Shown here: positions 1,215 through 33,869 of the stretch, piece after piece
How the letters are laid out: each line of letters opens with the position of its first letter
Position numbering within the stretch: position 1 is the first letter of the stretch
Origin: a virus
Virus record (IMG/VR): IMGVR_UViG_3300017963_006601
Coordinates: 1 to 33,869 of that record
Reading direction: 5' to 3' (one strand)
DNA length: 33,869 bases
Program-made: the position numbers and the translations under genes
The notes under the pieces: model-generated
Databases searched by the model: none
Told to the model about the DNA's origin: nothing
The model's input: the letters and a program-made list of their open reading frames with translations, nothing else

Positions 1215-1223
1215 GGAGAAATA

Positions 1224-1427: not shown

Positions 1428-1429
1428 CC

Positions 1430-4284: not shown

Positions 4285-4426
4285 AATTCTGTTCTATCTA
4301 GGTGCCAGCGCTTTGGTATGGGGCAAAATTGGGTCAATGATTTTAGGCCTGGGTATTATTGGCTATGGTTGCTATCGATTTAACCGTATGCTCAGACGTG
4401 CCAGGCTGTTGAGGAGCTATGCATAA
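4268..4426 (+). CDS. Small membrane protein
   Basis: A 52-residue ORF starting inside the last codons of the polymerase gene and ending in TAATG, which overlaps the next start. An AGGAG site at 4257-4261 is well spaced from its ATG. The sequence begins MFEIFEILFYLGASALVWGK and has one long hydrophobic stretch or two short ones (about 5-37), followed by a strongly basic tail (RMLRRARLLR), suggesting a cytoplasmic C-terminus. Function unknown. The ribosome site plus overlaps on both sides support it as a real gene. Confidence 0.6.
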   Translation: MFEIFEILFYLGASALVWGKIGSMILGLGIIGYGCYRFNRMLRRARLLRSYA

Positions 4427-5619: not shown

Positions 5620-5622
5620 CAC

Positions 5623-6213
5623 ATGTCTTGGATGAATGATTTTCTGTGGCTTGATGCCTTAGCGAAAAGCTATGATCCCTCGATTGAATTACACACCAAA
5701 GACAATTGGTTTCAATACGCTATTGCGTGGATCTTATTTCTAATTACCTTTGGTCGATTCAAGCGCCAAGATTATTTAACGCGCTTTGCAACAACCGTTG
5801 GCAATCATCATTACTATCCTAAAGAGTACACCAAATGGCAGGTGGAGCGCATCCTTCCTCATGAAGCTAGACATACCAGACAGTTTCGCTGGTTTGGATT
5901 GATGATACATCCGCTGTTAGGGCTTCCCGTTGCTATGCTGGTATATCTTTTCCTTCCTCTTCCCGTATTCATGGCGTGGGGGCGGTTCTGGATGGAACTA
6001 GATGCAGACAGGGCAAGTTATCGTCACCGGTTAAGAGAAATGGGCTATGCGACAGGTACCATCCTTCAACTAGCCGCCAGAAAATCAGAAGTGGTTTCAG
6101 GCCCCTCGTATTTCTGGGCTGTCCCAGAGGCATGGGCGCGACATATTTACATAGATATGGCAAAGGAAGTCATAGATGAATACGAAGACGAAATCTCCGC
6201 GCCAACGGCCTAG
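5623..6213 (+). CDS. Membrane-associated zinc metallopeptidase-like protein
   Basis: This 196-residue protein carries HEARH (80-84), an HExxH-type zinc site, and a downstream ELDADR motif (125-130) resembling the acidic third-ligand region of gluzincin-like peptidases. Two hydrophobic segments (about 31-44 and 94-120) flank the HEARH region and suggest an integral membrane protein with a cytoplasmic or membrane-facing active site. An AGGAG site precedes the ATG by 7 bases. The 3' end overlaps the dCMP deaminase gene by 38 bases. Substrate unknown: it could process a phage or host envelope protein. The metallopeptidase call is motif-based and not tested. Confidence 0.6.
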   Translation: MSWMNDFLWLDALAKSYDPSIELHTKDNWFQYAIAWILFLITFGRFKRQDYLTRFATTVGNHHYYPKEYTKWQVERILPHEARHTRQFRWFGLMIHPLLGLPVAMLVYLFLPLPVFMAWGRFWMELDADRASYRHRLREMGYATGTILQLAARKSEVVSGPSYFWAVPEAWARHIYIDMAKEVIDEYEDEISAPTA

Positions 6214-6757
6214 CTGGGACGAATTCTGGATGAAGTATTGTGACCTCGCATCAGAGCGAGGCACATGCGACCGCCGGTATGTCGGTGCTGTCCTTGTTAA
6301 AGACAACCAGGTACTAGCCACCGGATATAATGGCTCCATCCCAGGCGAGCCCCATTGCGACGATCCAGAAATTTTCTATCAGTGCCAACGATGTGGTGAC
6401 AAAACAACCATCCCTACTCATCGAGCTGATGGTCGAGGAACTGTATGCTCGCAATCACTTTGTGGAGGAACCACTATACAACAACATGGCGGGCACGACA
6501 TGGAAAACGGCCACTGCGTACGCACCGTGCATGCAGAAATTAATGTTATTGCTCAAGCTGCTAAGAGGGGTGTGGTAACGGAAGGAGCAACCCTTTATTG
6601 TAATACCAAACCGTGCTGGGGTTGTTTTAAAACCATTCTAACCGCTGGAATCAATCAGATTGTATATAGAGATGAATACGATAACCAAGACAATGACCGC
6701 ACCTCAAGAGTTGCCGCAAAGATCCCTGGATTTATATTTAGGCGACTACCAACATGA
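6176..6757 (+). CDS. dCMP deaminase with extra cysteine-rich insert
   Basis: A cytidine/deoxycytidylate deaminase-fold enzyme of 193 residues that would convert dCMP to dUMP for dTMP synthesis. The catalytic zinc motif is complete: HAE 119-121 (H119 ligand, E121 general acid/base) and PCWGC 146-150. Between the first strand pair and HAE is an insert with C70, C73, C91 and C96, probably a second, structural zinc site. AAGGAAGT precedes the ATG. The gene overlaps the metallopeptidase gene by 38 bases and the next gene by up to 86. Its position with a guanine-nucleotide enzyme fits a nucleotide-supply cluster. Other deaminases of the fold are less likely because of length and context. Confidence 0.9.
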   Translation: MNTKTKSPRQRPSWDEFWMKYCDLASERGTCDRRYVGAVLVKDNQVLATGYNGSIPGEPHCDDPEIFYQCQRCGDKTTIPTHRADGRGTVCSQSLCGGTTIQQHGGHDMENGHCVRTVHAEINVIAQAAKRGVVTEGATLYCNTKPCWGCFKTILTAGINQIVYRDEYDNQDNDRTSRVAAKIPGFIFRRLPT

Positions 6758-7193
6758 GCTGCAAGATATTGACAGTTATCTGTATCTTGAAATAGATAAC
6801 TGGTATTTGCCCATCGAAACCATTTCCCTCACAGTCGTACAGAACGAATTTGCTGGTCAGCTAATGGGCCAGCAGTCTCCTTATATAGCTAGAGCTCTAG
6901 CTAAAGTAGATATGAACAGTTGGGATGATTACATGGGCGTAATCACTGGAGAACAAGAGAGGGGTAAGCCAATTGGTTTTGTTTTAGCCAGGGGAGACGA
7001 ACATCTCTTGTATGCACCAGACGTTTACTGTAATATGACAAAGTACGGAAACGCTTTTAAGATGAGCTCAGACTATATGCTATCCATAATAATTCCCCAA
7101 ATACTTACAACTACCATTCAACCAGTATCTGCGTTCCTAGACCGGATGAAAGACTTAGAAGACCGACTAGATGGAATTGTACGGAGTTTGTAA
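6672..7193 (+). CDS. Hypothetical protein
   Basis: An approximately 173-residue protein that I do not recognise. It overlaps the end of the deaminase gene. The ATG at 6672 is used here, with no strong ribosome site; an ATG at 6693 or a TTG at 6660 are alternatives. The protein appears soluble, with a mixed alpha/beta look, hydrophobic stretches around ISLTVV and SIIIPQIL, and a C-terminal charged helix (MKDLEDRLDGIVRSL) able to form a coiled coil. Its TAA overlaps the next start as TAATG, so it is probably in the same operon. Confidence 0.55.
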   Translation: MNTITKTMTAPQELPQRSLDLYLGDYQHELQDIDSYLYLEIDNWYLPIETISLTVVQNEFAGQLMGQQSPYIARALAKVDMNSWDDYMGVITGEQERGKPIGFVLARGDEHLLYAPDVYCNMTKYGNAFKMSSDYMLSIIIPQILTTTIQPVSAFLDRMKDLEDRLDGIVRSL

Positions 7194-8275
7194 TGCGAAT
7201 ATTAGATCAAGCTGGACTAACATTTGATGATGTTTTACTTGTTCCCGCCAAGGGATATATTAATAGCCGCAATCCTAAGGGTACTGATATTGATGTAAGC
7301 ACTCAGCTCACCCCTAAAACATTTCAACTAAAATATCCTATTGTATCTGCCAATATGGATACCGTTACTGGACAAGAAATGATGTTAGAGATGCACAGGC
7401 TTGGCGGACTGGGAATCGTTCATCGTTTTATGTCCTTTGAGGACCAGGCAGATATACTTAATGACGATAAAAAAGTTATCGCCTGCATCGGCGCCGTAGA
7501 AGCCGAGAGAGAACGCCTAGTGTTCCTTCGCAAACATGCCCGCAATATCGCGGCTGTACTTATTGATACTGCGCATGGTCATTCTCAAATGATGATCGAT
7601 CAGATTCACTGGGTGCGAGAATGCCATTCAGATATTGATATTATTGCTGGCAATGTATGCACGGCAGATGCAGCCCTCGCGTTAATCCGTGCTGGCGCAC
7701 ACTGTGTCAAGGTTGGTGTTGGCCCAGGATCTATGTGCACAACACGTATTCAAACTGGCAATGGTGTGCCTCAACTTACCGCCGTTATGGATGTTAGACG
7801 TGGTATTGAAAAAGTGTACGCTCAACAGCGCGGAAAAGATTGGCGACCAAGAGTAATCGCCGATGGCGGTATCCGTAATAGTGGAGATATTGTTAAGGCT
7901 TTGGCCGCTGGTGCTGATGCGGTAATGATAGGTAGCTTATTTGCGGGTACAGATGAGGCTCCCGGGGAAACAACAACTGAGCCACATGCGGGGCCTCTCG
8001 CTAAAATCCTCAAGAAATATCGCGGGTGCGCGTCTCGAGATTTTCAAGAGGACTGGAAGGGTGAGGTTTACTCTGTGGAGGGAGAATCAGCCTGGATAAC
8101 AGCGCGCGGACCCGTCCATGATATTTTCCAGAGTTTAGTCGAGGGCATCTTATCGGGAATGTCTTATCAGGGGGCAGATACACTCGATGACCTATTCACT
8201 AACTCAGAATTTATCCTTCAGTCTCCTGCCGGTTACACGGAGGCTACCCCGCACGGCCTAAAGACTACTTGCTAA
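7193..8275 (+). CDS. IMP dehydrogenase/GMP reductase family enzyme, CBS-less
   Basis: A 360-residue (beta/alpha)8 purine nucleotide oxidoreductase. Seen: SANMDTV at 52-58, the catalytic loop GPGSMCTTR at 177-185 with nucleophile C182, and the phosphate-binding DGGIRNSGD at 224-232. It has no CBS (Bateman) insert, which most IMP dehydrogenases carry, and its length and short active-site flap (KYRGCAS to EGESAW) are closer to GMP reductase (about 346 residues). The loop after C182 (NGVPQ) is more like IMP dehydrogenase, so the direction of reaction is undecided: IMP to XMP, or GMP to IMP. GGAG precedes the ATG. It fits a nucleotide-pool role next to dCMP deaminase. Confidence 0.88.
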
Positions 8276-21523: not shown

Positions 21524-21551
21524 ATTGTATCAGACTATATTTTGTCTGCAA
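21524..21551 (-). promoter_or_regulatory. Possible sigma-70-like promoter
   Basis: On the - strand, TTGCAG (21551-21546) is followed after 16 bases by TACAAT (21529-21524), a fair sigma-70 match, in the 66-base gap between the gmd gene and the XhlA-like gene. It would drive the lysis-like and replication genes. Both boxes are common in AT-rich sequence, so confidence is low. Confidence 0.3.
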
Positions 21552-22518
21552 TACCTTCAATACGAAGATCATGCATGACCATCCGGTGTACTAATTCGTC
21601 AAATTGTACTTTGGGATACCATCCAAGATCATCCGAAATAGAGCTGTGATCTCCGACAAGAACTTCCACCTCGGCAGGACGATAAAAGCGGGGATCAATT
21701 TCCACGTAATCTTGATAGTCTAGGCCAACACCCTTGAAGGCGGCCTCACAGAACTCTCGTACACTGTGGGTTTGGCCAGTCGCCAGTACATAATCCTTGG
21801 GTTGAGCATTATCTTCCAGCATCATGATCATGCCCCGGGTGAAATCTCCGGCATAACCCCAGTCTCGTTTAGCATCCAGGTTACCTAGATACAGCTTGTC
21901 CTGTTTGCCAGCCTTAATTCTGGCTAGCGCCCTGGTAATTTTTCGGGTCACGAAATTGGTGCCCCGGCGTTCAGACTCATGGTTAAAGCAGATACTATTA
22001 CAGGCAAACATCTTGTAGGATTCTCGATAGTTAACGGTAATCCAATATCCGAAAAGCTTGGCGCATCCGTAGGGGGATTTAGGATAGAACCTAGCATTCT
22101 CATCTGCTGGTTCTGATGATACGCCACCATACAGCTCAGAGGTGGACGCCTGCAGAAACCGAGTATGGATACCAGACAGCCTGATCGCCTCTAGGCAGTT
22201 CAGGACGCCCATTCCAGAAACTTCGGCTGTGTATGACGGTTGCTTAAAAGACGTTCCTACGTGGCTCTGGGCGGCCATATTGAAGAATAAATCGGGCTTC
22301 GCCAGACTACACAAATGTGCCATGCCAGCAGCGTCCAGAAGGTCGCCTTCCACAACTTCTAGGCCCTCGGTACCCTCCAGGTGAGCCGAGCATCCGAGAT
22401 CCAGTCCTCGAGAAGATCTCCTAATCATTCCATATACTTTATAATCTTTCTCAAGCAATTGTTCTGCCAGGAATGAACCATCCTGTCCGCAAATGCCGGT
22501 GATAATTGCTGTTTTCAT
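21535..22518 (-). CDS. gmd: GDP-mannose 4,6-dehydratase
   Basis: A 327-residue short-chain dehydrogenase-fold enzyme converting GDP-D-mannose to GDP-4-keto-6-deoxy-D-mannose, precursor of fucose, rhamnose, colitose and related sugars. Seen: the NAD(P)-binding GICGQDG at 8-14, RRSSRG at 33-38, TSELYGG at 126-132 with catalytic Thr/Glu, Y150-xxx-K154 (YGCAK), and FNHESERRG at 179-186. GGAGG precedes the ATG. No second-step reductase or aminotransferase is visible here; it may be host-encoded, beyond the window, or unnecessary if this enzyme also reduces the product. It is the last gene of the glyco/sulfo cluster in transcription order. Confidence 0.93.
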   Translation of the reverse strand: MKTAIITGICGQDGSFLAEQLLEKDYKVYGMIRRSSRGLDLGCSAHLEGTEGLEVVEGDLLDAAGMAHLCSLAKPDLFFNMAAQSHVGTSFKQPSYTAEVSGMGVLNCLEAIRLSGIHTRFLQASTSELYGGVSSEPADENARFYPKSPYGCAKLFGYWITVNYRESYKMFACNSICFNHESERRGTNFVTRKITRALARIKAGKQDKLYLGNLDAKRDWGYAGDFTRGMIMMLEDNAQPKDYVLATGQTHSVREFCEAAFKGVGLDYQDYVEIDPRFYRPAEVEVLVGDHSSISDDLGWYPKVQFDELVHRMVMHDLRIEGIADKI

Positions 22519-22529
22519 AAATCCTCCGT

Positions 22530-23072
22530 TTAATCAATGGTTTCTAAAGTTTCTAATATTAGGCTAGCACATTCACCAGGGGAATGTCGAGAAGTATCTA
22601 TACTCAAAAGAAGAGCACTTGGGCTTTGCTCATACACCCCATCATATCCTGTCAATCCCTGAATCTCGCCCCGAACAGCTTTATCATATAGCCCCTTGGG
22701 ATCACGCTCTAGGCGCCTGATTAGGGGGGCATGAATGTAGACCTCATAATAATCTGCAGCCTGCATAATGAGCTTCTGGTTAGCTCTCCTATCAGCAATA
22801 AACGGCGCAATATTAGCCACCAAGATCAGAACATTGTCCATCTGAGAAGCCAGCATAAACGCCAGCGCCCCAAGACGACGTACATTCTGTGATCGATCCC
22901 GATCAGACAGCCCCAGCTCGGGCCAAAGCGCCCGGGCAATATCAGCATCCAGAATCATACACTGGTCATAGCCATGCATTTTTTGCATGTACTGAGCAAT
23001 AGTACTTTTGCCGGCCCCGGAAACCCCGGTTAGCCATACAACCTTACTTCGCTTTTTTGGCTTTTGCGGCAC
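22530..23072 (-). CDS. cysC: Adenylylsulfate (APS) kinase
   Basis: A 180-residue kinase that would phosphorylate APS to PAPS, the sulfate donor for sulfotransferases. Walker A is GVSGAGKST (16-24). The family segments LDADIARALWPELGLSDRDR and RDPKGLYDKAVRGE (123-136) with LTGYDGVYE match CysC closely. Two positions differ from E. coli CysC: DGD is DAD, and the ISP serine that is phosphorylated there is Ala (IAP 88-90). The start is a GTG at 23072, six bases after GGGAGG; the longer ATG frame to 23126 lies inside the upstream gene. No ATP sulfurylase is seen, so APS must come from the host. Three sulfotransferase-like genes lie in the same cluster. Confidence 0.9.
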   Translation of the reverse strand: MPQKPKKRSKVVWLTGVSGAGKSTIAQYMQKMHGYDQCMILDADIARALWPELGLSDRDRSQNVRRLGALAFMLASQMDNVLILVANIAPFIADRRANQKLIMQAADYYEVYIHAPLIRRLERDPKGLYDKAVRGEIQGLTGYDGVYEQSPSALLLSIDTSRHSPGECASLILETLETID

Positions 23073-23841
23073 GCTTAGCCTCCCTTCTTTGTCGCTTTTC
23101 TTCGCGCAAACGATGTTTTTCCTCATCTGACATCTGTTCTTTTTCGCGTTCTGGCTTGGTTACATCAACATAGTGTTGATAATGTTTTTTAGCTTGACTG
23201 ATCTCTTGATCAAGATCAAGAGGTTGATCATCTGCTGGCAATAACCTGTCGATACATCTCTCACCTATAGCCAGGCTTGGATTTTTGAATGCAATTAAGC
23301 ACACTTCTCCACAGCCATGGTTGGCGACCGATTCCGACTGAAAGCTGGGCTTGAAATGGGTCTCATAACGAAAGTCGTGCACGTACATTCCCAGCCCCTC
23401 TAGGCGTTTAATAGCCTTGCCTGCGGGAAGGGCGTGGAACCTGTTCACCGGAGATGACCTATCGTGATGGGGACTATTATGGGCTGCACCCCACGAAAGA
23501 AACATTACACCATCTGGTTTCAACAAGTTAACCATTTTCTCGAGGCTCCAGATCCAAAAGGGGTCGTGTTCCAGCATGGATGCGGAGGCCACGGTATCAA
23601 AGCTATTCTCGGCAAAGGGAACCTCGTGTGCCAATGAGATCAAGTCAATAGTCTTACTCTCTACTCCATTGGGCCGACCAGGTCTCCAGTCTACCCCTAC
23701 ATAATTAGAACACTGGAAATGGTCGCGAATACTTCCATTCTCGTTAAGGCTGCCAAATTCAATCACGCAACTCGGGTCTCGAAAAAAGGGCGTGTACTTC
23801 TTCTCGCAGCCCTTCCACCATCTTCTATTACTTCCATGCAT
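23044..23841 (-). CDS. SAM-dependent methyltransferase with charged tail
   Basis: A 265-residue class I methyltransferase of the type-11 style. Motif I is VIEFGS (26-31), the acidic end of strand 2 is VGVDWRP (D51), and SASMLEHDPFW follows as the motif IV/post region. It is a clear paralog of the next upstream gene: both begin MHxxNRxWW and share DHFQC, LEHDPFW, LSWGAAHN and the YxHDFRYE segment. Only this copy has an extra C-terminal tail of about 60 residues ending in a Lys/Arg/Glu/Ala-rich helix (from RLREEKRQRREAKRAAKAK). The acceptor is unknown; cluster context favours a sugar or glycan. AGGAG precedes the ATG. Confidence 0.8.
   Translation of the reverse strand: MHGSNRRWWKGCEKKYTPFFRDPSCVIEFGSLNENGSIRDHFQCSNYVGVDWRPGRPNGVESKTIDLISLAHEVPFAENSFDTVASASMLEHDPFWIWSLEKMVNLLKPDGVMFLSWGAAHNSPHHDRSSPVNRFHALPAGKAIKRLEGLGMYVHDFRYETHFKPSFQSESVANHGCGEVCLIAFKNPSLAIGERCIDRLLPADDQPLDLDQEISQAKKHYQHYVDVTKPEREKEQMSDEEKHRLREEKRQRREAKRAAKAKKAK
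23079..23084 (-). promoter_or_regulatory. Shine-Dalgarno site selecting the GTG start of APS kinase
   Basis: GGGAGG on the - strand lies six bases upstream of the GTG at 23072, inside the coding end of the methyltransferase gene. It supports the shorter 180-residue APS kinase, whose Walker A then lies at the usual distance from the N-terminus. Confidence 0.6.
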
Positions 23842-23850
23842 AACGTTCTC

Positions 23851-24513
23851 CTATTGGTCTCCATCGACAATCTCATCAATGAATTGTGTTCCGGGAGCTA
23901 AGCTCTCATCCTTAAATCCAACCAGAACAACTTCTCCGCATTTATGGTTTGGGCCACGATATATTCCGGTTTCTATATCCCTATAGTCCCTGAGAACTTC
24001 TTCGTATCCGGGCCGATATTCTGGTGGACTAAAATCATCAGTAATATGACACTCATATCGAAAGTCATGAATATATATCCCAAGTTTTTCTAGTAGATGA
24101 AGCGCCCGTCCCGCTGGCAAGGAATGAAATAATCCATCGGGGGCCTCCTTGAGACAATGAGAAAAATTATGGGCTGCCCCCCAAGACAAAAATAATATTC
24201 CTGTGTTTTTTAGGACCTGAACCATCTTAGTAATACTAGCTTCCCAAAATGGATCATGCTCTAGCATGGACGATGACACAACCGTGTCAAAGGCAGGTTT
24301 ATTAAACGGTGCTTCGTGGGCCAGGCTAACAATATCCACACCCCTTTGGGGCCTCCAGTCAATTCCAGTATAGTCATCACACTGAAAATGGTCTCTCACA
24401 GATCCACCACCCACCAAGGCGCTACCAAATTCAATAACCTTGCTTGGATTCTTAAAATAAGCTGGATATCTATTTTCACAAGCTCTCCACCATTGTCGAT
24501 TAGCAGGATGCAT
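23851..24513 (-). CDS. SAM-dependent methyltransferase (paralog)
   Basis: A 220-residue class I methyltransferase: motif I KVIEFGS (25-31), strand-2 acid in TGIDWRP (D52), then SSSMLEHDPFW. It is a tandem duplicate of the gene just downstream (23044-23841), with the same start (MHPANRQWW), the same LSWGAAHN and HDFRYE segments and a matching KCGEVVLVGFK end, but no charged tail. A short insert (around DDFSPPEYRPGYEEVL) is unique to this copy. The two may act on different positions of the same acceptor. The upstream ribosome site (GAGAG) is weak. Confidence 0.8.
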   Translation of the reverse strand: MHPANRQWWRACENRYPAYFKNPSKVIEFGSALVGGGSVRDHFQCDDYTGIDWRPQRGVDIVSLAHEAPFNKPAFDTVVSSSMLEHDPFWEASITKMVQVLKNTGILFLSWGAAHNFSHCLKEAPDGLFHSLPAGRALHLLEKLGIYIHDFRYECHITDDFSPPEYRPGYEEVLRDYRDIETGIYRGPNHKCGEVVLVGFKDESLAPGTQFIDEIVDGDQ

Positions 24514-24515
24514 AA

Positions 24516-24947
24516 CTATTCTTTTCTCTCAATCTGTTTAATGACCTGAGCTGGATTTCCACCCACAACGGTATAGGGCGGAACATCTTTCACTACAACA
24601 GAGCCGGCCGCCACTACGCTGTGTTGGCCAATTGTAACCCCTGGACATATAATTGCTCCGCTGCATATCCATGCTCCGCGCTTGATCGTAACTGGCTTGC
24701 TTTGAACCGCCCATACTCTCTCCTGGCCGAATTTACTGTAGTCGTGGGTTCCAGTTAAAACCATAACTCGATGACCAAAAAATACATCGTCTTTGATGGT
24801 AACCTGTCCCAGACAGTCAATGATAGACCCCCATCCTATATGTAAATTTTTCCCGAGCACTGGCTGGTGTGATCCTGGCGTATCCAATTGAAAGAATAGG
24901 GCATCATCCCCATGGGCACCCCATATATATAAATCTTCTGGCTTCAT
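24516..24947 (-). CDS. Hexapeptide-repeat acyl/acetyltransferase
   Basis: A 143-residue left-handed beta-helix acyltransferase of the maltose/galactoside O-acetyltransferase type. Hexapeptide repeats run from about residue 40 to 130 (VTIKDDVFFGHRV, AWICSGAIICPGVTIG, VVAAGSVVVKDV), with the catalytic-type His in GTHDYS and the family ending YTVVGGNPAQVIK. It would transfer an acetyl group from acetyl-CoA to a sugar hydroxyl. GGGAG precedes the ATG, and its start overlaps the upstream GT gene stop by four bases. Sugar acceptor unknown; the cluster suggests a decorated glycan. Confidence 0.88.
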   Translation of the reverse strand: MKPEDLYIWGAHGDDALFFQLDTPGSHQPVLGKNLHIGWGSIIDCLGQVTIKDDVFFGHRVMVLTGTHDYSKFGQERVWAVQSKPVTIKRGAWICSGAIICPGVTIGQHSVVAAGSVVVKDVPPYTVVGGNPAQVIKQIERKE

Positions 24948-26032
24948 CTTAAATCTCCCAGGAATTTCTCAACAAGACGCCTATCGTTATCAAAATTTAC
25001 TACATCACAAAATCGCTCATAGGCCTTTTCGCAAAACTGTTTATGAGAGACCGGGTCACTCAACTTTCGTAAATGATAAGCTATATCTCGCACAGGACGA
25101 TTTATATCGATACATGTTACCAAATCTTCTAACAAAAGTCCTGCTTTTTTGTCCGCATAGTCTCTAAGATTAACGATAGCGGGCCTCCCGCAGGCATAGG
25201 TGTTGTGGATGATATGCCCATAGGATTCTCCACCAGGCTTATAGTGCCAAGTAAATGCAGAATTGGCAATATGCTGAGCCAGCTCCTGTGTGGAAACAAT
25301 AATGTCAGATACGGGCCCCAGGGTTCTCGCCTTAAAACCCAACTGTAGCTCTGGCGCCAGATGGGCTACTTCTCTCATTAGATCCTCGCTCTGCGGAAAA
25401 TGAACATATGACCATATTGTCTGATGATTGATTGGTGATTTATACTTAAAGGTATCCAGACTAAACGGCTGGCAATATTCCACATAGTGCAATGCATCTG
25501 GATAATCTCGGGGCGAAGTATGCCACATCACATTGCGAGCCCCATTGGGCACTTCCCACTCCATGTTCCCCGGCCCCATGTGAAAAATATGTTTAGCCTG
25601 AGGCTGATAGAGGGCACGCAATTTCTCAAATAGTGGAAAATGCTGTGGAACTGAAGAAATAATAATATCAAATTTATGACTTCTAAAAGCCGACAATGTA
25701 ATAGCATTCTGGTAAGTGCCCTTGCTTTTGTCTAGCACTCTAAAGTATCCATTACCATCATTGATAATCGATCCTACCCGCAACAATTCAAAGCCATATC
25801 TGGCCCAAGACGGATCCGTAAACTCAGTATGAGCTGACAAGGATGATTCGCAGTGTCCATCCTGGCACGAGAGATATCCATCAACAACCAGTGGATGATG
25901 TGCAAGCCCCCAAAAACCCTCATCTTGCCACTCGCGTCCTATGGGCCGAAACACCCTATGGCCCATAGGGTTAAACAATAATTCAAATGAATGATATAGG
26001 TCAAAGTGGTGAAGGTCACACAGGATGTTCAT
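24944..26032 (-). CDS. GT-B-like glycosyltransferase candidate
   Basis: A 362-residue protein with a glycosyltransferase-like C-terminal half: FTWHYKPGGESYGHIIHNTYA then CGRPAIV resembles the donor-binding E-x7-E style region of GT4/GT-B enzymes. The N-terminus begins as a Rossmann-like half (MNILCDLHHFDLYHSFELLF). It is paralogous to the adjacent 345-residue gene, sharing the starting LHHF/CHHYELF pattern, DIIISSVPQH, AKHIFHMG and the whole C-terminal block. GGAG precedes the ATG; the genes overlap by four bases. Donor and acceptor are unknown. A classical DxD is not seen, in keeping with GT-B. Confidence 0.65.
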   Translation of the reverse strand: MNILCDLHHFDLYHSFELLFNPMGHRVFRPIGREWQDEGFWGLAHHPLVVDGYLSCQDGHCESSLSAHTEFTDPSWARYGFELLRVGSIINDGNGYFRVLDKSKGTYQNAITLSAFRSHKFDIIISSVPQHFPLFEKLRALYQPQAKHIFHMGPGNMEWEVPNGARNVMWHTSPRDYPDALHYVEYCQPFSLDTFKYKSPINHQTIWSYVHFPQSEDLMREVAHLAPELQLGFKARTLGPVSDIIVSTQELAQHIANSAFTWHYKPGGESYGHIIHNTYACGRPAIVNLRDYADKKAGLLLEDLVTCIDINRPVRDIAYHLRKLSDPVSHKQFCEKAYERFCDVVNFDNDRRLVEKFLGDLR

Positions 26033-27066
26033 CTCAGGTTCTCCAAAAAGGTCCTAATCTGAGCTTCTTCCTGATCAAAATTAACTACTTCTTGAAAGCG
26101 CTTATGCGCATTTTCGCACATACGGGCATGCTCTTCGGGCTGAGAGAACCGCCTGATTAGTTTCATGTTCTGCTGTATCGGACGACTCGAGATATCGATG
26201 CAGGTTTGCTGGTCTATCAGTAGCTGAGATGCCAACTTGGTATTATAAAATGGAGCCCAGATAATCGCCGGCCGGCCACATGCAAATGTGTTATGGATAA
26301 CATGGCCATAGCCATCCCCCTCTGGCTTGTAATGCCAGGTAAATGCAGAGTCTTTCATAGCCTGGGCCAAATCTTTTGTTTTCACAATATGGTCTTCCAT
26401 GCCTGCGCCATAAGAAGTCCACCTCCAATCAGGGACCCTAGAGGCATATTGATTCATCAGTTCCTTATTGTTCATCCAGTGAATATAGCTATTAACTACA
26501 TTGTGAACCTTGGGCGGCTCATAACTAAACGTATTGAGATCAAATTCCTGATGATAAAAACATGCGTTAATATCTGGCGTGACTGGAAATGGCGCAGCCG
26601 ATGCCAGGATATTTTGAACCCCAGGCAGATGTCCCCAGGCATTGCCAACCTGAAAAATATGTTTGGCCCTGGGCTGAAACTGTTGAATCAGTCGATTAAA
26701 GGGACCGATATGCTGGGGAATAGAGGAGATCACGATATCAAATTCAAGTTCCTTAAACTTGTCCAGGGTAATGCCCCTATTGACCTTGTCCTTGGTGGCA
26801 TCATTAACATAATAAATGCCATCCTCAACCCTAAAGTTCTTATTGAGACACAGAGAATAGTTATCCTCAAATTGCATATCTTTTAAGTGGTGTTCTGTTG
26901 AGAGGTATTGTTTTGCTGTATCAATATGCGGGAATACATGCCAGTACCCTTGATGATACCAGTCCATGCCTATCGGCCTATATAGCTCAGCATTTAGGCG
27001 CTTTTCGAACAACAGCTGCAACGAGTAAAACAACTCATAGTGATGACAGTCAGCCAATACACGCAT
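26029..27066 (-). CDS. GT-B-like glycosyltransferase candidate (paralog)
   Basis: A 345-residue protein, tandem paralog of the gene at 24944-26032. It shares the N-terminal MRVLADCHHYELFYS block, DIVISSIPQHIGPF, QPRAKHIFQVGNA, and the C-terminal FTWHYKPEGDGYGHVIHNT then CGRPAIIW, which is the most donor-site-like part. The middle thirds of the two proteins differ most, suggesting different acceptors. AGGAGA precedes the ATG; it overlaps the sulfotransferase gene upstream by 17 bases. The call rests on the pattern and on the neighbouring sugar genes. Confidence 0.65.
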   Translation of the reverse strand: MRVLADCHHYELFYSLQLLFEKRLNAELYRPIGMDWYHQGYWHVFPHIDTAKQYLSTEHHLKDMQFEDNYSLCLNKNFRVEDGIYYVNDATKDKVNRGITLDKFKELEFDIVISSIPQHIGPFNRLIQQFQPRAKHIFQVGNAWGHLPGVQNILASAAPFPVTPDINACFYHQEFDLNTFSYEPPKVHNVVNSYIHWMNNKELMNQYASRVPDWRWTSYGAGMEDHIVKTKDLAQAMKDSAFTWHYKPEGDGYGHVIHNTFACGRPAIIWAPFYNTKLASQLLIDQQTCIDISSRPIQQNMKLIRRFSQPEEHARMCENAHKRFQEVVNFDQEEAQIRTFLENLR

Positions 27067-27922
27067 AATCTTCTCCTATTCTAATGAGCGGCCTCGTATT
27101 GATCCGGTCTTTATTCTTCAAAACCCAGTTATACAGCTCAAGGTCGTAACGATTCATATCTTCAATTGCACGAATTAATTCTGGGCCACCCACATTTTTT
27201 TTCCTTAGCCTGTTCTCGTTCTTTTTAGATTGTAGAATATCTTGTTTTGACCAGCCAAATCTTGCTTCAAGCAACCTGCCACAATTACTGAAATTAGACG
27301 ATGTTTCCACGAAGGAGTAATTGTGTTCAAGATTGTTGATTGCCGCCTGCAAATGTTCTTCTGTAACCGAGATATAGGGAGAATCCACATACCGCGATTT
27401 ACTATGACAAGTAATACCAGCCAGGCAACGCACCAGATAATTATCCATAACACTCCTTAGCAAATGATGCATACTGGGTTCCATCTGGGCATAAACATCA
27501 TCGGTGACTAGCTGCCCAAGATCAAACCGTTTAAACTGGTGGTATAGGTCATTATGGCCATTAGATTGTGTATAAAACCAAAAGGCAGATAAAACGCGAT
27601 CAATGGGATACCTAACAAGGGTACACAAAACATATGGCTTATTGACAATGCGTTCAATTTCATCGCGAGTATTCCAATTTTGAAAATGTCCCCATACAAA
27701 CCTAATCTGTTGCTGTTTCTCGGGTGGCCAGTTATCGTAGTAATCCGGATGGGCTGGATCGATATTGAGCGAGTAGTATTTGTCTGCATAGTCCACCCTA
27801 CCCAGAGAGTCACGAAAATTCTGTAGAGCTAAAGCGCGAAATGAATTTCCCGCACACTTATGCAAGTGATGGAATAGTATTGTGTCGCCAGGGGTTATAC
27901 ACTCTATCTGGGTGCCATCCAT
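27050..27922 (-). CDS. Sulfotransferase (Sulfotransfer_2-like)
   Basis: A 290-residue protein with both PAPS-binding elements. The 5'-phosphosulfate loop is ILFHHLHKCAGNSF (15-28), close to the HxPKCAGT form of carbohydrate 2-O-sulfotransferases; the 3'-phosphate element is LVRYPIDRVLSAFW (102-114) with R104 and S112. Family members move sulfate from PAPS to sugar hydroxyls, in animals on heparan or dermatan, and in bacteria on surface glycans. No signal peptide or membrane anchor is visible, so it should work in the cytoplasm, where PAPS from the APS kinase gene would be available. AGGAAG precedes the ATG. Confidence 0.85.
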   Translation of the reverse strand: MDGTQIECITPGDTILFHHLHKCAGNSFRALALQNFRDSLGRVDYADKYYSLNIDPAHPDYYDNWPPEKQQQIRFVWGHFQNWNTRDEIERIVNKPYVLCTLVRYPIDRVLSAFWFYTQSNGHNDLYHQFKRFDLGQLVTDDVYAQMEPSMHHLLRSVMDNYLVRCLAGITCHSKSRYVDSPYISVTEEHLQAAINNLEHNYSFVETSSNFSNCGRLLEARFGWSKQDILQSKKNENRLRKKNVGGPELIRAIEDMNRYDLELYNWVLKNKDRINTRPLIRIGEDYACIG

Positions 27923-28758
27923 AGGTCATCTTCCTCGTAACCCAGGTCTACAAGCTCAGTGTTAGCAATAGATTTAAAGATATCTATTTCGTGATCAGTC
28001 CAGCGGTGCCAGCGTTGATTCATCTTAGTATCATCCTTAAATGAAGTGTGTTTCTTGCCCACCTTACGTTGTTTGATGTCATTAGCACGCTCCATGCATA
28101 TCTCGTGGTCAAGACTGAACCCAATCAAGTTAAACATCTGATCCATAATATCGACCGTATTGCTGATAAGGTCTTCGAAGCGAATAATATGATAATTAGG
28201 AACAGTCTTGGAACACTCTAGTGCCACCCGCGCCTTGTTGCGCCAGGCCTTACATAGCGCCTTGAAGTAATCCTCTGGATTTTCGGTATTTAGCTTCTCT
28301 TCGATGCCGCCCTTAAGATTGCGTAGTGATTCAGTGAGATTTCGCCCATCCCTAAGCACATTGACAAAATGCCACTCGCCAGGCGGTAATTGTAGAAGCT
28401 CTTTGGCACTCCACTTCATTGGCGATGGCCCTTCTAGGGGTTGTGGAATTTCATTGCTGGGTGTGTTACCCCACCAGTTACCTATGTGGGTCGAAATTGC
28501 AAAGGGCTTATCTCCATATTTCAACTCAGCTTCTTTAGCTAAATCTTCAATACCGCCAGAGTTAGTGTGTTTAATGCGGCATTCTTCTGGAGGTATTGTA
28601 GGCAGCCAATAATATTCTGGTACAGGCTTGCGCTTCCGCTCTGCCTTGTATCTAGCAAGCTCTTCGTCGCTCAATGCGAAGAAGGGAGTAGTGCTGACTA
28701 GATGTTGAAATAGCGTAGATCCACCGCGATAATGCAAAAAGAAAACAATCCGTTTCAT
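27904..28758 (-). CDS. Sulfotransferase-like protein
   Basis: A 284-residue protein starting MKRIVFFLHYRGGSTLFQHL; the ATG at 28758 is preferred to a frame reaching 28797 inside the upstream gene, and has GGAG nearby. YRGGST (10-15) is the 5'-phosphosulfate loop, and NVLRDGRNLTESL (133-145) with R136 and S144 is the 3'-phosphate element. This pattern fits the Sulfotransfer_1/3 group rather than the Sulfotransfer_2-like neighbour, so the two are not recent duplicates. The C-terminal KVGKKHTSFKD then WHRWTDHEID resembles the family's K-x-x-G end region. It overlaps both neighbours (19 bases downstream, 4 bases upstream). The acceptor is unknown. Confidence 0.75.
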   Translation of the reverse strand: MKRIVFFLHYRGGSTLFQHLVSTTPFFALSDEELARYKAERKRKPVPEYYWLPTIPPEECRIKHTNSGGIEDLAKEAELKYGDKPFAISTHIGNWWGNTPSNEIPQPLEGPSPMKWSAKELLQLPPGEWHFVNVLRDGRNLTESLRNLKGGIEEKLNTENPEDYFKALCKAWRNKARVALECSKTVPNYHIIRFEDLISNTVDIMDQMFNLIGFSLDHEICMERANDIKQRKVGKKHTSFKDDTKMNQRWHRWTDHEIDIFKSIANTELVDLGYEEDDLWMAPR

Positions 28759-29564
28759 GCCTTTTTCTCCAGTCGTAGTATATGGTGGGTTAACCATGGG
28801 CAGTTTTCATTGTGCAAAAATGTGCTCGTTTTTGATAATTGAATATCATTTTGGGCAGCATACTGCACAAACCACTTATATGGAAACCAGGTCATAGCAT
28901 AGCACCCACTAGTGCCATAGGCCCCGTCTTGCCCCTTAACATATATACCTTCCGCTCTGCCGGAAGATTTGACCTTGATGTTCTGCTCCTGTCCATTGGT
29001 TAAAAATACCGAAAAAACAACAGCGCCGCCACGATGTATAATGGGCAATAATTTGTCGCAGATCCGCCTGACTTCATTGGGCAATAAGTGGGTAAACACA
29101 CTGCCCAGAATAGCAATATCTGCACTTCCTACCGCTTCATCTTCAAAGGGTGTGTCGGTATAACCAAATTGCACACGATCATCGTGCCCCAGCAGTTCTC
29201 GGCCCTTTTCGATGCTTCTCTGTCCCCAGGGCAATGCGGGTTGTCGCTTAGACGGGGTCCATTTGCCGGCCCCCTGGGGTTCTGCACCATAATAAGTAAA
29301 ATCTTTCAGGTGGCCACTCACAAAATTGGCTAATCGCCCAGAGCCACTCCCGTAATCAAATATAGTCACCCCTTCTTTAAAATAATCTCCAGCACCCTCA
29401 CATAATGAAGCTAGCCATAATGCTCCGAGTCTCCAGTTGTCGCACCCGTAGCCATGATCTCTAAATTCAGGATTAATAACCGGATATTTGTACCCCTTTA
29501 GCCCGCCCATGGGAGCACCTTTTGGCGCCCACTTAGTTTGCCATAGTTCATCAGAAAATTTCAT
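28755..29564 (-). CDS. SAM-dependent methyltransferase
   Basis: A 269-residue class I methyltransferase. Motif I is VTIFDYGSGSGRLA (about 66-79), the strand-2 acid lies in YYGAEPQG, and ADIAILGSVFTHLLPNEV is the motif IV/V region typical of type-11/25 enzymes. It is unrelated at the motif level to the tandem pair at 23044-24513, so this cluster drew methyltransferases from at least two sources. GGAG precedes the ATG, which overlaps the upstream stop by four bases. Acceptor unknown; a sugar O-methyl group is a reasonable guess from context. Confidence 0.8.
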   Translation of the reverse strand: MKFSDELWQTKWAPKGAPMGGLKGYKYPVINPEFRDHGYGCDNWRLGALWLASLCEGAGDYFKEGVTIFDYGSGSGRLANFVSGHLKDFTYYGAEPQGAGKWTPSKRQPALPWGQRSIEKGRELLGHDDRVQFGYTDTPFEDEAVGSADIAILGSVFTHLLPNEVRRICDKLLPIIHRGGAVVFSVFLTNGQEQNIKVKSSGRAEGIYVKGQDGAYGTSGCYAMTWFPYKWFVQYAAQNDIQLSKTSTFLHNENCPWLTHHILRLEKKA

Positions 29565-30460
29565 GACTTATACTCCATGCATGTGCTTGCAGTCCACTTA
29601 TCCCATAAACCCAACACCGCATTGCGACCACCCATATGTTTGTATACCTGCCTCAGATTGTTGCGGATATGTTGCGGATAAATCTCATCTCCATAGGCTC
29701 TAGTTTGCGCTGCAAAATAGCCAATCCTAAACATGTCAGAGGGCTTGTCTGTCCGACATCTATGAATCGAAGCGTTTTCAACATGATAATAATACAGCAT
29801 TAAATTGCCAATATGAAACCATTCCTCGCCCCAAGCAGTCAATTTGTCTCTATAGTTCGCATAATGTGATCCAAATTTAGCCCCTAGCTTGTGTGCGGCA
29901 TAAACCAGTTTGCGATGGTGCCCTACCTCATCGACCTGTAGGGCATCCCAGAGCCTGCGACTCATTAGCCAGTGTGTAGTCTGCCAGTGCGGAGTAGGAG
30001 CAGGCACAACATCACCGTGTACAAAATCAATTTCTGGCACATGACTAATCACACGGCCGTCTTCAAACGAATAGTCATCTTGTTGCTTTTTAGATACTAG
30101 GTGACAAACCAGATCATAGTCACCTTCGCGAAATTCATCGATATACCCCTGAAGCTCGTCAACATTAGTTAGGAACAGGTCATTGTCAATAAAATATAGA
30201 CAATCATAGTTGAGATCATTTTTATGATGATCAGTAATTGCCTTAAAATTCATCATGCCGCCATCGTACGATACTGATGGCCTACCCATATCAATATATT
30301 GGCTACAGGGTCCAGCGTATGGCCCCCATGATTTGTTCCCCGTATCCTGAATCCAAAGGTTGCGATAGCCATTGTCCCAAAGTAACTGACACGTATCTTC
30401 GAAATATAGGCTGCGACGATGATGATTAGAAAACACCAGAACATTATTTGGAGACGACAT
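29561..30460 (-). CDS. GT-A-like glycosyltransferase candidate
   Basis: A 299-residue protein starting at an ATG seven bases after AGAGAGG; a longer frame to 30487 enters the upstream gene. Residues about 5-110 form a Rossmann-like domain ending in CLYFIDNDLFLTN (87-99), where DND (92-94) fits the metal/nucleotide-sugar DxD motif of GT-A enzymes. The C-terminal half is rich in His and aromatics (from HHRKLVYAAHKLGAKFG). Family unknown. Neighbours are a methyltransferase and a sulfotransferase, both overlapping it. Another DxD-bearing nucleotide-binding protein is possible. Confidence 0.55.
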   Translation of the reverse strand: MSSPNNVLVFSNHHRRSLYFEDTCQLLWDNGYRNLWIQDTGNKSWGPYAGPCSQYIDMGRPSVSYDGGMMNFKAITDHHKNDLNYDCLYFIDNDLFLTNVDELQGYIDEFREGDYDLVCHLVSKKQQDDYSFEDGRVISHVPEIDFVHGDVVPAPTPHWQTTHWLMSRRLWDALQVDEVGHHRKLVYAAHKLGAKFGSHYANYRDKLTAWGEEWFHIGNLMLYYYHVENASIHRCRTDKPSDMFRIGYFAAQTRAYGDEIYPQHIRNNLRQVYKHMGGRNAVLGLWDKWTASTCMEYKS

Positions 30461-31148
30461 CAATATACCTCTCTCTGTATTCCTCAAGCTGACAGTTCTT
30501 TTTTAGGGTACGATGTATGTAATCCACAACTTCGTCGCCCAACTCGTGTTTGGTCCCAGAGGTGTTCACCTTAGCAATACTGTTTTGATAGACATAGTCT
30601 ATTTCTTCGTCAGTAGGAACATAATCTTCTAGGCCCATCATTTTTGGGATATTATAAATAAACTCTCTATCTGAAGCATCCTCGTAGTAAATAAACCTGA
30701 CTTCCTTGACCATGCGCTTAAGCTGATTAATCTTTTCGCAGTAACGACAAAACCGTAAAACGCCATACTCCTCGCTCGTAATAAACTGGTTCAATTCGGT
30801 GGGTATATTTCCGCCCAGCGCATTCTTACGATTTTTGAGATAATAATAATGAGATACTACTGATTTCTGCGTATCCCTAAGAAGGACATATGCGATATCC
30901 TTGTTCTTTTTAAGGGGCATAGCAAATCTCATCACTCCGCTGCCGCCCACTGGAGCAAAACCAATATGCGATCCAACAAGTATCTGACTTAGGCAATTCC
31001 AGACATGCTTGGGCCCGACGGGGGCCTCAGGAGGAAATACACCAGGAAAGGTTTCCTGAAAGATATTATAATTCTTCTCCAGAAAAAGCTTCATTCGATG
31101 CTCTTGCCAAATGCGCCCCGAACGCGGATAAGAAATAAAATAGTTCAT
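30444..31148 (-). CDS. Sulfotransferase (Sulfotransfer_1-like)
   Basis: A 234-residue protein with FISYPRSGRIW (4-14), the classic YPKSGTxW-type 5'-phosphosulfate loop with Arg in the Lys place and Arg for Thr, and VLLRDTQKSVVSHYYYLKN (88-106), a good 3'-phosphate element (R91, S99). It is short for the family (about 250-300). The weak C-terminus lacks an obvious RKG motif, though VNTSGTKHELGD occupies that place. GGAGG precedes the ATG. It is the third sulfotransferase-like gene of the cluster and the closest to cytosolic-type sulfotransferases. Confidence 0.75.
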   Translation of the reverse strand: MNYFISYPRSGRIWQEHRMKLFLEKNYNIFQETFPGVFPPEAPVGPKHVWNCLSQILVGSHIGFAPVGGSGVMRFAMPLKKNKDIAYVLLRDTQKSVVSHYYYLKNRKNALGGNIPTELNQFITSEEYGVLRFCRYCEKINQLKRMVKEVRFIYYEDASDREFIYNIPKMMGLEDYVPTDEEIDYVYQNSIAKVNTSGTKHELGDEVVDYIHRTLKKNCQLEEYRERYIDVVSK

Positions 31149-31687
31149 TTTGCCTCCCTGAGTTGTTTCTTGACCACAGTTAGTCCTGGAAATGGATTAA
31201 ATACAAAGTGCTCATAGGGGCACTCAATCAAGACAGGAACAATGGGCGGGTGCCCATATGACTTAATCCATCCCTTATCTCTCTCTTCTGTACCGCCCTC
31301 CAATAGAGCAATTCCATTATCAGTTAGCTTATCCATATAGTGATCAAAAAAGACTTGGTATGTACGACCATCATTAGATACATCAATATGGAAAAGGTCT
31401 ACGCTATTGTTGGGCATATCTTTATAGTGTTGATAAAAATCGCCATACTGGATGATTTCGCCATATCTATCATAAAGATATTTATAGTCGGCGTGCCTAT
31501 ACTGATAATCGTCAAAGATATCATATGCCCTTACAATGGTTTCTGGCTCTACTGCATCAAGAATGCAGTTTAGACTGTATCCCCCCAAGATGCCAAACTC
31601 AACTACCATCTCTGGATTATAAAGGGCCACCAGACTTTGAATCAGTTGGCCGTAGTTATTCTCTCGGTATGAACTACATAAGTTCAT
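31145..31687 (-). CDS. Class I SAM methyltransferase
   Basis: A 180-residue protein with motif I MVVEFGILGGYSLNCIL (27-43), strand-2 acid in VRAYDIFDD (about 52-60), and VDLFHIDVSNDGRTYQVF, a motif IV layout found in O-methyltransferases of the Methyltransf_24-like group and in rhamnosyl/macrocin O-methyltransferases. The start overlaps the upstream GT gene by 14 bases and follows AGAGGA. No membrane part. It would most likely methylate a sugar hydroxyl; this is inferred from the cluster. Confidence 0.7.
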   Translation of the reverse strand: MNLCSSYRENNYGQLIQSLVALYNPEMVVEFGILGGYSLNCILDAVEPETIVRAYDIFDDYQYRHADYKYLYDRYGEIIQYGDFYQHYKDMPNNSVDLFHIDVSNDGRTYQVFFDHYMDKLTDNGIALLEGGTEERDKGWIKSYGHPPIVPVLIECPYEHFVFNPFPGLTVVKKQLREAK

Positions 31688-32510
31688 TGGTTCTGTCCTC
31701 TAAAAGATAGGATGGGATCTGGCCTTTAATTCGCCAACTAGACATGTCCACCCACCTAAAGCCATCAAATACCTCATACGCCTCCGTAAAGGCACGAAAT
31801 CTGAATCCTAAGTGATGGAGCTCGGTTGGGAAACCAACTTCCCCAAAGTCCACTCCGTGTATTCCCTTGTCAAAGTGACGTGGCGCTTTCGTAAATACCC
31901 CCATGGCATCTTCCATTTTTTGTAGGGCGTCGTACTTCATGAAATACAATCCGCCATCCGTCCATATCCTCTTGTTGGGCTTAAAGTGAGTAACAACGCG
32001 ACCCCAACCGCCATCACACCGACTTTCCTTAACCCCGTTTTGTAGGTAGCGCGCATATTTCAGTGGTTCCCTCTTCATGTTAATGTAACTAAACATGCCT
32101 ACATATATATATCCCTTGCGCTTGAGAAGGCGTGCCCTGTGGGGCCAGTGACTAAACAGCCAATCATCCTCACATGCCAGCACGTACTTAGACTTGATAT
32201 TTTCTTTCTTGAGAAATCTCCATGTATCCCATAGTGCACCAACTAGCATACCCCAGTTTTCATCCTTGAGGCAAACAATATCTACGTAGTCGGGACGAGT
32301 ATTTTCTTCAAACAAAGCCTGGGTAACCTGCCTCTCATATTCTTCGTGATCACCACGAACTGACACCACGAACAACACCCGCTTCTTGCCATCCTGAAGA
32401 TGGTTGTAATTGCATACAAACTGCAGGTGGCGACGCACATTGCCTGCCCCCCGGCGAGATCCTGCAAATATACATGTCATATAAACATAATGATATTTAC
32501 GCCTTAGCAT
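31674..32510 (-). CDS. GT-A-like glycosyltransferase candidate
   Basis: A 278-residue protein starting MLRRKYHYVYMTCIFAG after AGGA; a longer frame to 32660 is rejected because it lies within the acetyltransferase gene. VLFVVSVRGDHEEYERQV (45-62) resembles a nucleotide-binding strand, and YVLACEDDWLF (109-119) with EDD looks like a DxD-type metal site. WTDGGLYFMKYDALQKME and HGVDFGEVGFPTEL are long conserved blocks shared with the gene at the window edge (33047-33869), so the two are paralogs separated by a GNAT gene. Family not recognised beyond the GT-A likeness. Confidence 0.6.
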   Translation of the reverse strand: MLRRKYHYVYMTCIFAGSRRGAGNVRRHLQFVCNYNHLQDGKKRVLFVVSVRGDHEEYERQVTQALFEENTRPDYVDIVCLKDENWGMLVGALWDTWRFLKKENIKSKYVLACEDDWLFSHWPHRARLLKRKGYIYVGMFSYINMKREPLKYARYLQNGVKESRCDGGWGRVVTHFKPNKRIWTDGGLYFMKYDALQKMEDAMGVFTKAPRHFDKGIHGVDFGEVGFPTELHHLGFRFRAFTEAYEVFDGFRWVDMSSWRIKGQIPSYLLEDRTNELM

Positions 32511-33045
32511 CTTTTTCCTGTTGAATTTCTGCTCGATATTCATCCTCGAGTATCGACATAAGGATATAGTCATTATAAATACCATTACGGAAAATGGCAT
32601 CCCTTTGTCGTCCCTCTTCTCGAAAACCCATCTTCTTGTATAGTCCCAACGCAATAGCATTCGTGTTCATTACGGCTAGCCAGACACGATGCATGTTGAG
32701 AAAATCAAAGCAATATCTCAAAAGCAGATTGTAGGTCTGGGTCCCAAGGCCCTGGCCACGAAATTCCTTAGCAATATCAGCACCAATTCGTATAGATCGA
32801 TTCTGGTGATCAATTTCATCCATGCGCGCTAAGCCTACCGGATAGACAAATTTGTCCGATGCAATGATGTGATATTGCTTCCTCGAATCCTTAAGTGATG
32901 ACAGCCATGCCTCTTGGCTAGCCTCGGTAGGGGCCACAAGGGTTCCTAGTTGACTCCATACAGCGGGATCACTGCGTAGATACCTTAAGAAATCTAGGTC
33001 ATCTCGAACCACTGGTCGTATGTATAGGTCTCCATCATGGAACAT
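32497..33045 (-). CDS. GNAT-family N-acetyltransferase (RimJ/RimL-like)
   Basis: A 182-residue GNAT enzyme. The acetyl-CoA-binding motif is EFRGQGLGTQTYNLLL (RGQGLG), and the C-terminal AVMNTNAIALGLYKKMGF then EGRQRDAIFRNGIYNDYI is typical of the RimJ/RimL group, which also includes sugar-amine N-acetyltransferases such as those acting on amino-deoxy sugars. In this cluster an amino-sugar acceptor is the likelier reading, although ribosomal or virion protein acetylation is possible. AGGAT precedes the ATG. It lies between two paralogous GT-like genes. Confidence 0.85.
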   Translation of the reverse strand: MFHDGDLYIRPVVRDDLDFLRYLRSDPAVWSQLGTLVAPTEASQEAWLSSLKDSRKQYHIIASDKFVYPVGLARMDEIDHQNRSIRIGADIAKEFRGQGLGTQTYNLLLRYCFDFLNMHRVWLAVMNTNAIALGLYKKMGFREEGRQRDAIFRNGIYNDYILMSILEDEYRAEIQQEKDAKA

Positions 33046-33046
33046 T

Positions 33047-33869
33047 TTAAATCCTAAAAAATAGCTCTGGAGCCCTGCCCAAATTGCGATAAGGGCGATG
33101 TGATTCCGGGCCCAGACCTATAATCTTAAATCCGGCAGCCTGTAATTCTGTTGGAAAACCTGCTTCGCCAAAATACATCCCATCACGAGTATGGTTATAG
33201 GGTTTGTCCTTTGGGGCCTTGGTAAATATGCCAATCTTGTTCTCAATCGCCTGAAGAGACTCATATTTCATAAAATAAAAACCCCCGTCTGTCCAGTCCA
33301 GGTTCTCATACCCGTATTTTGCGTGTATAAAATTCAGGGCATTGCCAATAACAGGTCGATCATTCCGATGCAAAGTCCGATAGCCATGCTTGCTAACCCA
33401 ATATAGGTGGCCACAATGTTTCTGTGATAAAATCATGCCCACATAGATATACCCCAGTTCTAATAATCGTTCCCGCAAAGACCAGTTGCTGCTTATGTAG
33501 TCGTCTTCAGACACACTCACATATTGAGAAACAATTTTACCCTTGAGCACATCCTTCCATACATCCCAGAGACTACCTATGGTGCCTCCCCAATTGGTAT
33601 GACGTACAACTTTGAGATGAATATTGCTTGGCATACATAGGCCATCGAAAGCTTCCTGGACCTGCCTCTCGTAATCTGGACACAAGTCTCCACGTATGGC
33701 TACAACTAGCAAAACACTCTTGTCTCCCGTGGTCTTGACTCTTGCGTCTACGAATCTTGGGTAGACCCGGTCCTTGAGATATTCATATTGGCGCAAGAAG
33801 TTCATGTGGGCACGCGCTGTATGTAATACGCGGTTGCGTCCTGGCCAAATACACAGAATATATACATAA
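33047..33869 (-). CDS. GT-A-like glycosyltransferase candidate, 5'-truncated by the window edge
   Basis: The frame is open from 33047 to the edge. An internal ATG at 33805 gives 252 residues, but upstream codons remain open and read YVYILCIWPGRNRVLH, matching the paralog's YVYMTCIFAGSRRG, so the true start lies just beyond the window. Counted from that ATG, VLLVVAIRGDLCPDYERQV (31-49), SVSEDDYIS with EDD (100-102), LDWTDGGFYFMKYESLQ and MYFGEAGFPTEL align with the gene at 31674-32510. The EDD suggests a metal-dependent GT-A-like site. Donor and acceptor are unknown. Confidence 0.6.
   Translation of the reverse strand, partial: YVYILCIWPGRNRVLHTARAHMNFLRQYEYLKDRVYPRFVDARVKTTGDKSVLLVVAIRGDLCPDYERQVQEAFDGLCMPSNIHLKVVRHTNWGGTIGSLWDVWKDVLKGKIVSQYVSVSEDDYISSNWSLRERLLELGYIYVGMILSQKHCGHLYWVSKHGYRTLHRNDRPVIGNALNFIHAKYGYENLDWTDGGFYFMKYESLQAIENKIGIFTKAPKDKPYNHTRDGMYFGEAGFPTELQAAGFKIIGLGPESHRPYRNLGRAPELFFRI

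Follow-up and report, generated by a model that had tools for sequence, protein, structure and literature searches.

A divergent phage APS kinase that probably supplies PAPS to the sulfotransferases of a glycan gene cluster

What would a phage gain from encoding the PAPS-making step of sulfate assimilation by itself? The question is raised by a gene at positions 22530-23072 of a 33.9-kb virus record (the whole of which is here termed the window), which an earlier note had read as an APS kinase that would raise the PAPS pool for the phage's own sulfotransferases. Viral copies of cysC have usually been described as genes of assimilatory sulfate reduction, as in the COBRA paper (PMC10914622), the Challenger Deep study (PMC9529941) and the work of Kieft et al. 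(PMC8190135), and are routinely taken as the sign of a phage role in sulfate assimilation.

The longest open frame at this locus spans 22530-23126 on the minus strand. However, no ribosome-binding site precedes the ATG at 23126, whereas the GTG at 23072 is preceded, at normal spacing, by a GGGAGG Shine-Dalgarno sequence; hence the GTG is very probably the true start, and the coordinates of the earlier note are a better choice than the longest frame. A Pfam search with the protein recovered PF01583 (APS_kinase) with an e-value of 2.8e-36 (125.3 bits, cut-off 21.1), and the TIGR00455 (apsK) model scored 141.2 bits, barely above its cut-off of 138.7, the two together confirming the family identity that had been proposed. 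The best match in the PDB was 8a8h, the APS kinase of Methanothermococcus thermolithotrophicus (E 1e-30). No better match to a different P-loop kinase, the outcome that had been named as contradicting this identity, was obtained, the next Pfam families being the generic P-loop modules AAA_18 (29.1 bits) and Zeta_toxin (27.7 bits). A structure prediction from the single sequence was poor (mean pLDDT 56) and was set aside.

In the structure of Mycobacterium tuberculosis CysC, the residues that bind ATP and APS are the P-loop Lys, the LDGD Asp, Arg483, Arg497 and the lid residues Arg559 and Lys562, while the adenine of APS is sandwiched between two Phe residues (PMC4373884). Our alignment indicated that all six ATP- and APS-holding residues are kept in the window protein (numbered here from the 23126 start) as Lys40 of the P-loop, the catalytic Asp62 of LDGD, Arg65 of DGDxxR, the second phosphosulfate arginine Arg78, and Arg141 and Lys144 of the lid; the P-loop and the RDPKGLY motif are present as previously observed. 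The Gly of LDGD is replaced by Ala, such that DGD reads DAD. The place of E. coli Ser109 is occupied by Ala107, a substitution that had been pointed out before and that is both real and rare, with Ser seen in 76, Thr in 2 and Ala in 2 of 80 non-redundant relatives. The suggestion that regulation may differ on this account did not find support, as the equivalent Ser524 of the M. tuberculosis enzyme touches the sulfate via its main-chain nitrogen only, and the ATP in that structure is positioned for direct transfer (PMC4373884). Given these two features, the Ala is compatible with activity and says little on regulation; we found no studies of Ser mutants of APS kinase in the open literature. What appears to be the more unusual feature had been missed: both Phe residues of the adenine clamp are replaced, by Leu73 and Leu158, at positions where Phe or Tyr is found in 78 and 74 of the 80 relatives, respectively. 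The aromatic pair is typical of the family and lies outside its curated definition, and its absence weakens the claim of activity, though the family models are still matched.

In a tree of APS kinases the window protein forms a very long end branch (4.2 changes per site) with no supported neighbours; among the rows closest to it by path are CysN-C domains of Bacteroidota with the same GLTGYD lid. A group of 25 rows of viral enzymes was recovered with a support of 85 (not starred); the window protein falls outside it, and a forced union with it was not rejected (p 0.67). The proposed phylogenetic choice between host CysC and a viral clade thus ended, owing to the long branch, in no supported placement. 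Together with the Leu/Leu clamp, this branch length implies that the substrate or the rate may have changed. One could accordingly envisage a relative of APS kinase acting on an altered substrate, such as another adenylate or a sugar nucleotide, with glycan synthesis being served otherwise, and the DAD and Ala substitutions would fit with such a history. We hold it to be quite improbable: the phosphosulfate arginines, catalytic Asp and lid Lys are retained, the lid-position Leu (the second of the clamp) is shared by the archaeal APS kinase 8a8h and by CysN-C proteins of Bacteroidota, and other P-loop kinase families score far lower. The window gene is better seen as a member of the APS-kinase family with unusual substitutions, for which ATP-dependent conversion of APS to PAPS is predicted.

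The surroundings of the gene offer a use for this product. The main genes from 33805 down to 21535 are all on the minus strand, most of them with overlaps that range from a few bases to some tens (Table 1). This cluster combines three sulfotransferases with four methyltransferase-like proteins and several possible glycosyltransferases that belong to no family. The sulfotransferases lie 4-9 kb from the APS kinase, on the same strand and in the same run of mostly overlapping genes. The second of them falls under the Pfam cut-off, and we name it sulfotransferase-like given that both of its PAPS-binding motifs are retained in a distant homologue (L200:3781-4455). The third has no Pfam match on its own; nevertheless, a profile of its family matches human SULT1A1 (E 7.8e-11), both PAPS-binding motifs (SYPRSG and RDxxxxxxS) are present, and the PDB matches listed for its predicted structure are sulfotransferases or proteins with the sulfotransferase fold, at modest values (TM about 0.4-0.5, mean pLDDT 75).

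Table 1. The APS kinase of the window and the genes of the run in which it lies
Feature	Position	Strand	Evidence
GDP-mannose 4,6-dehydratase-like enzyme	21535..22518	-	PF16363 388 bits; gmd TIGR01472 393 bits, below cut-off 415
APS kinase (CysC-like), 180 aa, GTG start	22530..23072	-	PF01583, TIGR00455, PDB 8a8h, Shine-Dalgarno, active-site residues
SAM methyltransferase	23044..23841	-	PF08241 above cut-off
SAM methyltransferase	23851..24513	-	PF08241 above cut-off
Hexapeptide-repeat acyltransferase	24516..24947	-	PF00132 above cut-off
Suspected glycosyltransferase	24944..26032	-	No Pfam match; related to 26029..27066, both matching one single protein of a related phage
Suspected glycosyltransferase	26029..27066	-	No Pfam match; shares 40% identity with a protein encoded near gmd in the related phage G052
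Sulfotransferase 1 (Sulfotransfer_2 type)	27050..27922	-	PF03567 29.1 bits, cut-off 22; motifs HKCAGNSF, RYPIDRVLSAF
Sulfotransferase-like protein 2 (Sulfotransfer_3-like)	27904..28797	-	PF13469 22.6 bits, below cut-off 27; motifs RGGSTL, LRDGRNLTES
Methyltransferase-like protein	28755..29564	-	Weak PF08242/PF13489
Protein of unknown family	29561..30487	-	No Pfam match; start and length resemble L197:7306-8208 in the adjoining contig
Sulfotransferase 3 (cytosolic SULT type)	30444..31148	-	Family profile; motifs SYPRSG, LRDTQKSVVSHYY; paralogue L197:4813-5559
Methyltransferase	31145..31687	-	PF13578 above cut-off
Suspected glycosyltransferase	31674..32660	-	No Pfam match; judged from surroundings
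GNAT acetyltransferase	32497..33045	-	PF13302 61 bits
Protein without Pfam match	33047..33805	-	By eye like 31674-32660

A second contig of 94.5 kb (L152, the same as L193-L197; record G051) shares a stretch of 5,212 identical bases with the window and extends it rightward. Since this contig encodes a terminase, a major head protein and a tail sheath, the window phage has a contractile tail; its genome measures at least about 123 kb and may be incomplete here. In this contig the glycan cluster runs on just after the tail genes, where it includes, besides glycosyltransferases, a nucleotidyltransferase, a DegT aminotransferase, two epimerases and a SULT-like sulfotransferase, which brings the number of sulfotransferases to four. 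Among isolated phages the closest terminase shows about 33% identity, and the hits belong to phages of unrelated hosts, so no host was assigned. The order of the replication genes in window positions 1-21500 is common to L200, L201 and L203, a lineage seen here in metagenome contigs only. In this region the frame of the DNA polymerase III alpha subunit (1633-4284) does not include its N-terminal PHP domain, and in the relative L201 (14497-17181, 19075-19983) a PHP-like stretch forms a separate gene further along, so that the polymerase seems to be split. The window also encodes an IMP dehydrogenase catalytic domain (7193-8275, PF00478), which is likewise present in the relative L203.

A related phage, G052, has a similar gene setting with a sulfotransferase adjoining gmd, and no APS kinase was found in the part of it that was seen. 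Our expectation that a phage without the kinase would also be without sulfotransferases was therefore wrong, and phage sulfation can evidently do without an APS kinase of its own. The absence from G052 might also suggest that in the window phage the kinase is a passenger, acquired with the glycan cluster and since fallen out of use; yet its frame is intact, its ribosome-binding site is proper and its catalytic residues have been kept despite high divergence, and we consider such a history extremely improbable.

With regard to the rest of the pathway, we detected no match to PF01507, the family of CysH and CysD, or to the ATP sulfurylase family PF01747 in either the window or the overlapping contig (33.9 + 89 kb). 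The idea of a kinase without the remainder of sulfate assimilation is hence borne out for these two families in these two pieces of a possibly incomplete genome, and the check for ATP sulfurylase elsewhere in the genome, which had been recommended, likewise gave no match in either piece. For a wider comparison we turned to other viruses. When the single protein served as query, no viral relatives were recovered, but an alignment of six sequences retrieved 152 APS-kinase stretches in viral contigs, from which 80 loci were kept; the resulting survey set comprises 50 non-redundant APS-kinase viral records besides the window phage, of which a few, such as L014, may be bacterial. Annotated phage records gave five matches, of which four do not resemble phage APS kinases and were rejected: one is a Salmonella contig that has cysDNC genes of its own, two are short fragments of faecal origin and bacterial appearance, and one is L002 (OQ572406.1, 'Pseudomonas phage Y4', UNVERIFIED), where a sensor kinase and glycosyltransferases give the surroundings a bacterial look, so that contamination or mislabelling of the record is possible.

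A sulfotransferase was found in 30 of the 50 records (Sulfotransfer_3 in 17, Sulfotransfer_2 in 15 and Sulfotransfer_1 in 17), and in 22 of these 30 the nearest one lies within 5 kb of the APS kinase; it was not detectable in the other 20 contigs. As controls we used 50 viral records (6.1 Mb, against 6.3 Mb for the APS-kinase set) obtained with the window proteins gmd, PhoH and DnaE, and, to retrieve the window phage itself, one sulfotransferase; from these the window phage and two records with an APS-kinase match of their own, both of which also carry a sulfotransferase, were left out (n=47). Sulfotransferases were seen in 12 of these 47 (Fisher p 6e-4, the records being related by descent and the control non-random), and at curated cut-offs the counts were 25/50 against 6/47 (Fisher p 7e-5); diverged sulfotransferases like those of the window evade Pfam in both sets. 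At least 14 changes in the presence of a sulfotransferase are needed over the APS-kinase tree; this scatter argues against a single founder, and the link between kinase and sulfotransferase is thus not the accident of one lineage. PF01507 occurs in just 3 of the 50 records, one of which (L014) has a long CysN-C-like protein adjacent in a bacterial-type arrangement, and of the 47 records searched for PF01747 not one gave a match above the cut-off. In a separate 94-kb viral contig (L208), in which the window APS kinase has no counterpart by sequence match, about five sulfotransferase-like genes cluster among glycosyl- and methyltransferases (1012-6361), and a PF01507 gene lies elsewhere.

The enrichment and proximity of sulfotransferases, the near absence of PAPS reductase in the survey and the three sulfotransferases in the window's own run, where the reductive branch was not found, all support the earlier proposal that PAPS is raised for the phage's own sulfotransferases. 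The gene could instead boost host sulfate assimilation, with PAPS passing via sulfite to cysteine; this is the usual account of viral cysC in the three studies cited at the outset, and a host CysH, if present, would also consume PAPS. With no PAPS reductase found in window or adjoining contig, three to four sulfotransferases sharing the kinase's cluster, and PF01507 as scarce among the surveyed contigs as described, we judge this role to be improbable.

In 23 of the 50 viral records the APS kinase has a small NadM/PF01467-type HxGH nucleotidyltransferase close downstream (highly conserved examples being L035:10902-11366, L034:10536-11003 and L010:10891-11292) or fused C-terminally (L024, L054), and in 11 of 50 a HAD-like domain is fused to its C-terminus (L008, L009, L010, L012, L016, L035, L049, L052, L056, L057 and L060). 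Isolated phages have a shorter kinase-nucleotidyltransferase family, PHROG 10255; neither partner was found in the window phage. The partner nucleotidyltransferase resembles nicotinamide-nucleotide adenylyltransferases. ATP sulfurylase and the NadM-like nucleotidyltransferases are members of one superfamily, and for this reason the partner could supply APS. It may thus be a minimal ATP sulfurylase, with NMN adenylyltransferase activity in NAD metabolism or some other role equally open, and the fused HAD domain might act as a PAP phosphatase. It is tempting, though we think it unlikely, to generalize that phage APS kinases belong to sulfation systems, with the main viral group forming a self-contained PAPS factory in which the nucleotidyltransferase would be a new, minimal ATP sulfurylase and the fused HAD would clear PAP, the window phage being a variant dependent on host APS.

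Our preferred reading, to which we assign a probability of roughly 0.8, is that the window gene encodes an APS kinase with the predicted activity of making PAPS from host APS for phage sulfotransferases that act on a glycan built by the cluster. The host ATP sulfurylase would make APS, and the phage enzyme, going by its family and conserved catalytic residues, would phosphorylate the 3' hydroxyl of APS to give PAPS. The sulfotransferases encoded in the cluster would then transfer sulfate from PAPS to the glycan, whose sugars would be supplied and decorated by the GDP-mannose 4,6-dehydratase, epimerases, aminotransferase and acyl-, acetyl- and methyltransferases. The sulfated glycan would be displayed on either the virion or the surface of the infected cell. 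More generally, the survey suggests that the usual role of APS kinase in phages is in sulfation and not in sulfur assimilation, and the label 'assimilatory sulfate reduction' looks wrong for viral cysC in most cases. If most copies indeed feed phage sulfotransferases, ecological claims need revision, and the little-noticed making of sulfated glycans by phages becomes testable; sulfated surface sugars could alter the recognition of the phage or the infected cell by other phages, defence systems and grazers. The interest of the locus lies in this system and the general pattern rather than in the gene alone.

Like the typical CysC/APS kinase (EC 2.7.1.25), as represented by 8a8h and E. coli CysC, the window protein has the P-loop, DxDxxR and the RDPKGLY lid and is of stand-alone size, but it differs in its Leu/Leu clamp and in the Ala for Ser109, and has no cysDN or cysH beside its gene. 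The viral cysC auxiliary metabolic genes of previous surveys (PMC10914622, PMC9529941, PMC8190135) are likewise phage-borne APS kinases, in genomes that are larger on average; they have been filed under assimilatory sulfate reduction, whereas the context in the window is one of sulfation and the nucleotidyltransferase of the main viral group is absent. Sulfotransferase-family genes in tailed phages have been reported from OM43 phage contigs, where their function was called unclear (PMC10580990); in contrast, several of them share a single cluster with an APS kinase in the window. In the open-access literature we found no paper that joins a phage APS kinase with phage sulfotransferases. A further parallel is the rhizobial NodPQ-NodH system, with which the window shares the combination of a dedicated PAPS supply, sulfotransferase and glycan genes; NodPQ-NodH differs in being bacterial, in making a lipo-oligosaccharide signal and in that its NodPQ part includes the ATP sulfurylase.
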